Below, piece after piece: positions 16,438 to 19,400 of a stretch of DNA of 64,000 nucleotides (positions are counted from its first letter, which is position 1; every line of letters begins with the position of its first letter). Under the pieces are notes generated by a model. That model searched no databases. It saw only the letters and a list, made by a program, of their open reading frames with translations, and had not been told where the DNA came from. The translations under genes were made by a program, and so were the position numbers. This DNA comes from Terriglobales bacterium (GTDB lineage: Bacteria > Acidobacteriota > Terriglobia > Terriglobales > Acidobacteriaceae). Location: positions 434,001-498,000 of the forward strand of contig JAICSO010000001.1 in the NCBI GenBank assembly GCA_025936825.1, in the 5' to 3' direction.

Positions 16438-19400
16438 CTAGCTGCAGCCGCTCGTGCTGCCGCAGCTCATGCACTTATAGCAACTGCCGTTGCGGACCAT
16501 GATCGAGCCGCAGACGTGACAGCTGGGCGCGTCGCCGAGGTCGATCATTTCGGCGAGGGCGTCGGCCGCATGAATGCTGCCCGTCCCACGTCGTGCGTCG
16601 TGCGTCGCACGCTGGTCTGTGCTGGGCGGAGGGTCGCCTGCTTCCGGCAATCCAGAATCGGCGGGCGAGGGCGCCCGCCCTACATCACCCGCTGCCAGCC
16701 GCGGTCTCAGGTTATCGAACAGCATCTGCTGCTGGCCGGTGAGGAAGCGAAGCTGCAGCCAGCGGAAGATATAGTCCATGATCGACTTGGCAAAGCCGAT
16801 GTCGGGATTGTTGGTCCAGCCGCTGGGCTCGAAGCGCGTGTGCGCAAACTTCTCGCACAACATTTTCAAGGGCACGCCGTGTTGCAGCGCCAGCGATATA
16901 GCGCAGGAGAAGCTGTCCATCAGGCCGCTGACCGTCGAGCCTTCCTTGGCCATGGTGATGAACAGTTCGCCGGGGTCTCCGCTGGGATACAGGCCCACGG
17001 TGATGTAGCCCTCGTGTCCGCCCACGTTGAACTTGTGCGTGATCGACATGCGCTCGTCTTCGAGCTTGTGGCGCACGGCGCGCGGCGGCGCGTGCATGTC
17101 CTGCTCTTCGACCACAACCTGTGTGGCGCGGGCGCCCACGCCCGCGGCCTCTGCGGTCTTCGTCCCTGCGGCCGAGAGCGGCTGCGACTTCTTGCATCCG
17201 TCGCGATAGATCGCCACCGCCTTCAGGCCGAGCTTCCACGCCTGAATGTAGGCTTCGGAGATGTCCTCAACCGTGGCAGCTTCAGGCAGGTTCACGGTCT
17301 TCGAGATCGCGCCCGAGATGAATGGCTGAGCCGCGGCCATCATCTTGAGGTGTCCCATGTACGCGATGGAGCGCGTGCCCTTGGCCGGCTTGAAGGAGCA
17401 GTCGAAGACGGCGAGGTGGTCATCCTTAACGTGAGGTGCCCCCTCAATCGTCCCCGTGGCATCAATGTAACTTACAATCGCGTCCGCCTGCTCGTGGCTA
17501 TATCCAAGCTTGAACAGCGCCGTTGGCACGGTGTTGTTCACGATCTTGATCATCCCGCCGCCAACCAGCTTCTTGTACTTCACCAGCGCCAAGTCCGGCT
17601 CAATCCCCGTCGTATCGCAATCCATAAAGAACCCTATAGTTCCGGTTGGGGCGAGGACTGTGACTTGCGAGTTGCGATAGCCGAACTTTTCGCCGTGGGC
17701 GAGAGCTTCGTCCCAGCAGGCTTTGGACCCTTCGAAGAGAGCTGACGGGACATTCGTTTTGTTGATGTTGTTCACCGAGGCGCGGTGCATGCGGATCACG
17801 TCGAGGAACGGCTCGCGGTTGATGTAGAAGCCGGGGCATGCGCCGCCGGGCATGGTGGCAGCGGAGCTTTGCTCCGCCGAACGGACGGGGGCGTCCGTCC
17901 CCACGTGAGTTGTGCTGAATCCGAGGTTCGTGTCGCCGAGGCCCTTCTTCGTCGGCTCAGTTGCGGGAACCAGCGGCGGGCAAGTTTCCGCGATCCGCGA
18001 AGACTGCAGATACGCTTGGCCGCACATGATCGCGGTAACGCAGGCAGCGTAGTCGCGGCCGGCGTCGGAGTCGTAGGGCAGACCGCAAGCCATCAGAAGC
18101 GCGCCCAGGTTCGCATAGCCGAGGCCGAGCGGACGATAATCATGCGAATTCTTCATGATCATCTCGGTCGGATAACCGGCGTTGTCGACGATGATTTCCT
18201 GCGCCGTGATCAGGATGTCCACCGCGTGGCGATAAGCCTCGACGTCAAACGTCCCGTTGGGCGCGAACTTCAGCAGGTTCAGGCTGGCCAGGTTGCAGGC
18301 GGAGTCGTCGAGGAACATGTACTCCGAGCACGGGTTCGACGCGTTGATGCGCGCCGTGTTCTTCGACGTGTGCCAACGGTTGACGGTGGTGTCGTACTGC
18401 ATGCCAGGATCGCCGCAACGCCAGGTCGCGTCGGAAATCTTGAAGAGCAGGTCTTTGGCCTTGAAGGTCTGCACCGGGCGGCCGTCCTTCACCGCGCGCG
18501 TGGAGAAGTCGGTGTCGCGCATCACGGCGTACATAAAGTCGTCGGTCACGCGCACGGAGTTGTTGGCGTTCTGGAAAAAGATCGAGCTGTAGGCTTCGGC
18601 GTCGGGCGAGCTGCCGTCGTAACCCATCGCGACCAGCGCGTGAGCCTTGGCTTCTTCCTTCGACTTGCACTCGACGAAGTCAACGATATCGGGATGGTCA
18701 ACATTCAGAATGACCATCTTCGCCGCGCGGCGGGTCTTGCCGCCGGACTTGATCACGCCAGCGAATGCGTCGAATCCCTTCATGAAGCTGAGGGGGCCGC
18801 TGGCAGTGCCGCCGCCGGCGAGGGTCTCATTCGAGGAGCGCAGAGGAGAGAGATTGGTGCCCGTGCCTGATCCCCACTTGAAGAGCATGCCTTCGGTCTT
18901 CGCAAGAGTAAGGATGGAGTCGAGCGAATCGTGCACCGAGTTGATGAAGCAGGCGGAGCACTGCGGTTTCTTGTATCCGGTGACGCCGAATTCGACGCGG
19001 CCGAGCGTAGCATTCCAGTGCCAGTTCTGGCCGTCAGAGTTGGGTTCGATGCGATCGCATCCGACGTTGAACCACACGGGCGAGTTGAAGGCTGCGTACT
19101 GGCGAATAAGAAGATGCACGAGTTCGTCGTGGAAAGTGGCGCCGTCCTCAGGAGTGCGGAAGTAGCCCTGGGCCAAACCCCAGTCGCGAATAGTTTCAGC
19201 CACGCGGCCGACGAGCTGGCGCACGCCAGTTTCGCGCTCGGGCGTGCCGACCTGTCCGTGAAGATATTTGCTGGCGACGATGTTGGTCGCAGTCATCGAC
19301 CAGTCTTTGGGAACTTCAACATCCTTCTGCTCGAAAATAATGTTGCCTTTCGAGTCGGCGATGGTGGCATTGCGCTTTTCCCATTCGACTTCGTCGTAGG

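Follow-up and report, generated by a model that had tools for sequence, protein, structure and literature searches.

Two unrelated genes share a segment in the same reading frame

Why should a ribonucleotide reductase and an amine oxidase contain the same short segment, in the same orientation and the same reading frame? This question is raised by two genes located in a stretch of 64,000 nucleotides from a Terriglobales bacterium (the window). The first gene, nrdJ (16438..19515, minus strand), encodes an adenosylcobalamin-dependent class II ribonucleotide reductase of 1025 aa (NF005122, 1468.5 bits; PF02867), and the second (22336..23754, minus strand) encodes a FAD-dependent amine oxidase of 472 aa (PF01593, 209.3 bits). 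The original prediction placed the two segments at 17861-17925 and 23122-23180, and we found these positions, the common orientation and the common reading frame to be right. Local alignment showed that the nrdJ segment HVGTDAPVRSAEQSS and the amine oxidase segment HVGADALVRPVEQTS are identical at 44 of 55 bases (80%), with a score of 33. Searched in 90-base tiles, the rest of the window gave the nrdJ segment a score of 14 at best, and the reversed window gave 16; chance similarity of the two segments is ruled out by this difference (33 versus at most 16).

The segments are tagged units of two hairpins

The segments had been described as a palindromic element. Palindromic stems are present, yet each segment is not one palindrome, but is composed of two different hairpins behind a GTRG tag. 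The nrdJ copy (17859..17912, minus strand) has a GTGG tag at 17904-17901 (minus-strand reading), a first hairpin with a 9-bp stem and a 4-nt loop, and a second hairpin GCGGAGC-AAA-GCTCCGC, and encodes the peptide HVGTDAPVRSAEQSSA. The sister copy in the amine oxidase gene (23118..23171, minus strand) has a GTAG tag at 23163-23160 and two hairpins like those of the nrdJ copy, and encodes HVGADALVRPVEQTST. Their covariance model scores are 69.7 and 67.7 bits, respectively, which are not independent values because both copies belonged to the model's own alignment. In the scan with this model each of the two copies stands alone, with no inverted partner, and Rfam did not match any copy of the element in the window. 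The model also matched the C-terminal linker of nrdJ, where a weaker, decayed copy (16641..16691, minus strand; 25.4 bits, E 0.0005) encodes VGRAPSPADSG; similar peptides are present in the loci L021, L024 and L099 and missing from most other NrdJ rows shown. Another match, weak (21.4 bits, E 0.004) and possibly a remnant, precedes the TSCPD domain in the nrdJ linker (17115..17156, plus strand).

The structure of the unit was derived from an alignment of 22 copies, taken from the window, the genome and the NrdJ loci of relatives. The GTAG or GTGG tag immediately precedes a first stem of 9 bp that closes a 4-nt loop; a short spacer then leads to a second stem with a core that is mostly GAGC-NAA-GCTC, the entire unit being about 46-50 nt long. 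RNAalifold predicted 15 column pairs, 10 of which have changed on both sides with pairing kept (shuffled alignments gave a mean of 5.0, and 0 of 500 reached 10), and 93% of cells were paired versus 31-48% with the partners slid; these controls lean towards structure, because the rows were partly picked for hairpins and share descent. In most of the 22 rows the tag occupies alignment columns 11-14, the stem 15-23/28-36 and the loop 24-27; L032 and L049 are shifted in the alignment, and a few tags deviate among the genome copies examined. The available text of PMC6006769 gives the short form of the REP rule as GTAG or GTGG separated by 0-2 nt from a following stem of 7-20 bp, the loop being 2-5 nt long; our unit, in which the GTRG abuts a stem of 9 bp closing a loop of 4 nt, fits this rule. 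MITEs of DDE insertion sequences are bounded by one pair of terminal inverted repeats and a target-site duplication, whereas our element has two separate hairpins. No clear target-site duplication was seen by eye in the nrdJ DNA, and none was definable at the amine oxidase gene either.

The element is a dispersed family in the genome and its relatives

An exact-match search of the genome found two copies and a search with three mismatches found 10; such searches undercount the family, hence our use of the covariance model. Scanning with a hand-made pattern of GTRG and two hairpins was too loose (57 hits, with overlapping loci multiply counted, versus 35 in the reversed control) and was used only for picking copies to align. 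In the genome of 6.5 Mb, the covariance model found at least 97 matches at E<=0.1 and at least 51 at 43.9 bits or more on many contigs, both counts being lower bounds from the 150 of 3181 candidates that were scored. The element is thus present in tens of copies or more, as expected of a dispersed family, and these dozens of further copies, with NrdJ and an amine oxidase as hosts in the window, bear out the prediction that a common element was inserted in unrelated genes. In REPINs the mobile unit is formed by two REPs facing each other. In our genome six inverted neighbour pairs (plus then minus) are 9-25 nt apart, some with weak partners, whereas the two window copies are solitary.

Among 61 genomes (our genome and 60 relatives), 18 had a match at E<=1e-6, all of which are among the 37 genomes of the same family, and none of the 24 genomes outside the family had a match at this threshold. 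For the genomes of the fetched NrdJ loci, 46 of the 80 loci were included; the element was found in 39 of these 46 genomes and was absent from the three outgroup genomes (L062-L064). One genome bin, that of L023, has an element-like segment in nrdJ and no other match at E<=1e-6; this bin is labelled as another phylum.

The element flanks a RAYT transposase gene

The genome contains seven Y1 transposase genes (eight Pfam matches, two of which were taken as parts of one gene). One of them, on contig C97, encodes a REP-associated tyrosine transposase (RAYT) of 159 aa and is accompanied by three copies of the element, at distances of 190, 57 and 137 nt from its Y1_Tnp match. One copy is upstream in plus sense, and the gene is immediately bordered on both sides by inverted copies. 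Within 300 nt of any of the seven RAYT genes, 0.033 copies were expected and three were observed (Poisson P 6e-6); only this one of the seven has the element within that distance. The C97 protein passes the NCBIfam model REP_Tyr_transpos (NF047646; 88.5 bits, cut-off 80), and its best PDB match is TnpAREP (4er8, E 0.011). By eye it contains the motifs DHVH, WQ and YVLANP, which are close to the class 2 TnpAREP signatures in Table 1 of PMC6006769, as far as its available text goes. The C97 locus therefore has the arrangement of a REPtron, in which REPs flank a RAYT with HUH, W and Y-NP motifs.

We compared the flanks of the best RAYT locus in each of 30 genomes. The results showed that the element adjoins 9 of the 17 RAYT loci of the clade (L182-L198, own included) and not one of the 13 that are distant. 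Among those nine, L189 and L191 have weak flanking matches only (21-25 bits); eight of the 17 have no flanking element match. Across the 61 genomes, 12 have both the element (E<=1e-6) and a RAYT (100 bits or more), six the element only, four the RAYT only and 39 neither (Fisher p 1.2e-5), and within the family the numbers are 12, 6, 4 and 15 (Fisher p 0.008), both tests ignoring shared descent. One of the six element-only genomes (G003) has a shorter or partial RAYT match of 74 bits beside elements (L198), and the other five have distant RAYT matches only. Because it is GTRG-tagged and flanks a RAYT gene, the element belongs with the GTAG/REP-RAYT kind of repeat.

Many copies lie in open frames of Pfam-supported genes

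We examined 51 of the 52 copies scoring 42.2 bits or more (C140:65207 was left out). Of the six reading frames of the element, five are open in 43 to 50 of the 51 copies; the TAG of the tag falls in the remaining frame, which is open in 22. Eighteen of the 51 are inside genes with Pfam support and have an open frame there, five of the six frames being represented; for REPs tagged with GTAG or GTGG, most copies are expected to be intergenic. The host genes are nrdJ, the amine oxidase gene, carB, valS, selD, selA, ychF, uvrC, recG, mnmE, dus, mutS2, and genes encoding a family-9 glycosyltransferase, an aromatic amino acid (histidine) lyase, a PD40 protein, an mtaB-like product, an LptC/LptD-like protein and a peptidase C26 protein; for the PD40 gene and mutS2, the Pfam matches are on one side of the element only. 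Many of these eighteen are housekeeping genes, and several act in DNA synthesis, repair or tRNA modification. Assigned by eye, nine of the 18 are read in the HVGTDALVRPVERSS frame, two in another sense frame and seven in the three antisense frames (4, 2 and 1). The two own-genome loci L144 and L146 contain selD and selA, both of which belong to selenocysteine synthesis and each of which has an element in frame.

Comparison with homologues verified the insert in 8 of the 18 genes, and for the other 10 the support is the open frame and the Pfam match. Relative to PDB homologues, ValS, RecG, CarB, MnmE and histidine ammonia-lyase have surplus residues where the element lies, the surplus in ValS, RecG and MnmE exceeding the element itself; the remaining three of the eight are nrdJ, uvrC and the amine oxidase gene. 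In the latter, we aligned 17 of the 29 fetched loci of relatives, and found that the 28 extra residues at the element are absent from all 16 informative orthologues (L109 does not cover the site). The same gene contains a second GTGG-tagged palindrome of a different family (22798..22821, minus strand), which encodes VGRTFLSDNKPGATSG; its family has 44 genome matches with at most three mismatches and no control matches, and the stretch is shorter in the aligned orthologues.

The nrdJ site differs between close relatives

In 44 Terriglobales-type NrdJ rows, with states assigned by eye, 16 are element-like at the site, 25 have nothing there and three (L053, L058 and L022) contain extra residues of another kind and were grouped with the rows lacking the element. 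The whole region is missing from the distant NrdJ rows. In agreement with the prediction, 28 of the 44 related rows have no element at this site. At a second nrdJ site downstream, elements are located in 9 of the 44 rows. The covariance model, in whose building several of these rows had served, recovered the element at the first site in 11 of 15 fetched rows assigned to it (L029, L034, L039 and L060 being missed) and in none of the 28 other rows, and at the second site in 7 of the 9 element rows. On a tree of 48 of the 81 NrdJ rows (the 44 and four outgroups; the remaining 33 are more distant), built without the element columns and with 17 open forks, we counted at least 11 state changes at the first site and six at the second, numbers that cannot separate gain from loss.

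These data bear on the possibility that the nrdJ segment is an old, vertically inherited, lineage-specific NrdJ loop, GC-rich and palindromic by chance, which some species have lost. The 16 element-like rows, including the three nearest to the window (L093, L099 and L021), would agree with such inheritance. However, the nrdJ copy of our genome is closer to many copies in the same genome than to those at the nrdJ site of these nearest relatives, which rank 29 (L093), 54 (L021) and 56 (L099) of 56 in similarity to it, versus ranks 4 and 10 for the copies of the more distant L025 and L055. Relative to the three nearest loci, the nrdJ flanks are 85-89% identical (the downstream flank of L093 not included), whereas the element is 63-77% identical and its stems stay paired; between our copy and that of L093, 4 of the 15 pairs have changed on both sides and one on one side. 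Furthermore, the sister pairs L023/L059 and L039/L038 differ in state, and homologous units lie in unrelated genes and beside a RAYT. We consider inheritance of such a loop improbable, and as a full account it is refuted by the copies elsewhere; an ancestral first insertion in nrdJ that was later replaced is possible. Judged from these sequence comparisons, new insertion or replacement fits the nrdJ pattern better than slow change in place. The original prediction had held that the same peptide at the same site in orthologues would argue for ancestral protein sequence. Such peptides do occur, yet insertion stands, because the site is empty in many close orthologues and the peptides derive from different copies of the element.

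The predicted NrdJ structure has a mean pLDDT of 66, and the insert-holding residues 528-553 score below 50, a model too poor for placing the insert beyond a low-confidence stretch between two helices. In the PDB alignment of NrdJ, residues 510-584 are unmatched.

Several other features of the NrdJ loci were observed. The loci L044, L057 and L099 are longer than the others, and in L044 and L099 a second partial match to the NrdJ C-terminus follows the gene. In L056 the C-terminal linker and tail, as shown, are equal to those of L049, although L056 as a whole is a distant protein (65% identity to the query); this combination points to recombination in the gene or to a chimeric assembly. DQRPTT/DHRPLTT-like words are often located in the linker before the last cysteine-rich tail (window, L021, L033, L036, L042, L043 and L054) and are possibly another repeat translated in frame.

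Insertion recurs at the same sites of carB and uvrC

We analyzed carB and uvrC in 29 relatives each. In carB of same-genus relatives, L217 has an insert at the site used in our genome (50.4 bits) and L233 has two weak ones (29.8 and 23.6 bits); L219, L220 and L222 have no insert, and L226 is ambiguous. The uvrC linker contains sense copies in our genome, L247 and L265, an antisense copy in L248, both orientations in L275, and weak matches in L249 and L250. The opposite orientations at this one site indicate separate insertions, and since the length of the uvrC linker varies in all relatives, it is permissive by nature. Relatives thus have different copies at the same site of nrdJ, carB and uvrC, which indicates that insertion recurs.

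Recurrence at these three sites could also suggest that the element is kept because its hairpin or peptide is useful, as mRNA structure, binding site or linker, beyond being tolerated. The nrdJ hairpins, which stay paired while their sequence changes, and the host genes acting in DNA synthesis, repair or tRNA modification, a bias also found in the available text of PMC3733652, point the same way. However, many relatives lack the element at each site, the peptides at the one uvrC linker differ in frame and orientation, and recurrence is equally expected if few loops tolerate inserts. Selection for usefulness is therefore an unlikely explanation in our assessment.

Proposed origin of the in-frame segments

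We conclude that the segments of the window are very probably copies of a GTRG-tagged, two-hairpin REP, spread by a RAYT and tolerated in frame at permissive sites that are hit again. The family, its paired stems, its position on both sides of a RAYT gene and its presence in open frames of many genes were observed directly. The RAYT would recognise the tag and the first hairpin on single-stranded DNA and spread copies; the available text of PMC8266576 reports that TnpAREP binds and cuts single-stranded tagged REPs, which by analogy supports this putative mechanism. Most insertions into genes would be lost. Those with a length divisible by three in permissive loops or linkers would survive, presumably because stop codons are almost absent from five of the six frames of the element. 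The host protein would thereby gain about 16-20 harmless residues. Permissive sites such as the nrdJ loop, the carB loop and the uvrC linker would be hit again in different species, and at nrdJ some copies may be replaced by conversion from other copies. Tentatively, we also propose that this transposase-spread repeat might have become "protein-compatible", repeatedly entering the same loops of essential enzymes in many species and replacing older copies, so that essential genes would be its lasting havens and would gain new peptide loops in either orientation.

As in REPtrons, the GTAG-tagged REPs with RAYT/TnpAREP, a stem-loop is immediately preceded by a GTAG or GTGG tag, a gene for a REP-associated Y1 HUH transposase has copies on either side, and the copies are dispersed, some being inverted neighbours. 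Unlike REPtrons, the element has a second, unlike hairpin, lies inside genes in 18 of the 51 examined copies, and resides in Acidobacteriota, where the RAYT relatives of K. versatilis are flanked by TIRs, not REPs, in the available text of PMC3733652. That text defines the GTAG and CGTC repeat superfamilies, describes REPs inside genes, many of them of DNA repair, in Opitutus terrae, Thauera, Xanthomonas and others, and reports a REP at about one shared site of recB in two Xanthomonas species. Our element resembles those intragenic REPs in lying inside genes and in using a shared site, and differs from them in that three conserved genes are involved, with recurrence at one site over several species and opposite orientations at one of them. 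In the open-access literature we found neither a RAYT-linked, gene-invading REP family in Acidobacteriota nor such reuse of sites. In-frame REPs in genes are thus already known in other phyla, as far as the available text of PMC3733652 goes; the RAYT-linked, site-recurrent family would be a new form of them.

The original prediction compared the segments with Rickettsia palindromic elements. The behaviour is alike, short palindromic units being tolerated in frame in unrelated protein genes, but true kinship is highly improbable and membership was rejected, because the element has a GTRG tag and flanks a RAYT gene, whereas RPE-4 and RPE-6 are equated with CGTC-tagged repeats, which are reported without association with a transposase gene in the available text of PMC3733652.

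With a gene-invading palindromic repeat and its likely mobilising enzyme in one genome, the origin of in-frame inserts becomes testable there. Natural replicates of insertion at one protein site, in both orientations and in housekeeping enzymes, also provide a data set on peptide tolerance.

Other repeat families and Acido-Lenti-1

The window contains two further palindromes of another family, with one copy GTACCCATGTCTCG...CGAGACATG at 12600..12681 and a second GTACCCATGTCTCG copy at 14876..14957, both on the plus strand. The palindrome with GTACCCATGTCTCG arms is the same as the inverted repeat flanking another RAYT gene of this genome (L018), where it is perfect over 49 nt. The RAYT loci L014, L016 and L017 each have their own inverted repeats beside the transposase match, and from these separate repeats the genome seems to host several RAYT-repeat pairs at once.

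Directly upstream of nrdJ, Rfam identified three units of Acido-Lenti-1 (RF01687; 19691..19907, plus strand). Like our element, Acido-Lenti-1 is a dispersed palindromic family of this genome that flanks RAYT genes; the sequence family differs. At least 85 matches in the genome are above the Rfam cut-off (150 of 1577 candidates were scored), and six lie within 300 nt of RAYT matches versus 0.055 expected (P 4e-11). It flanks three of the seven RAYT genes on both sides (L013, L015 and L019), all of them other than the C97 one. Acido-Lenti-1 is listed as an sRNA in Rfam, and the available text of PMC2864571 places it among candidate structured RNAs, not as cis-regulatory. From its genomic positions, Acido-Lenti-1 is probably a RAYT-associated mobile repeat, which suggests that, if this "RNA" is a mobile repeat, its Rfam annotation would need correction.
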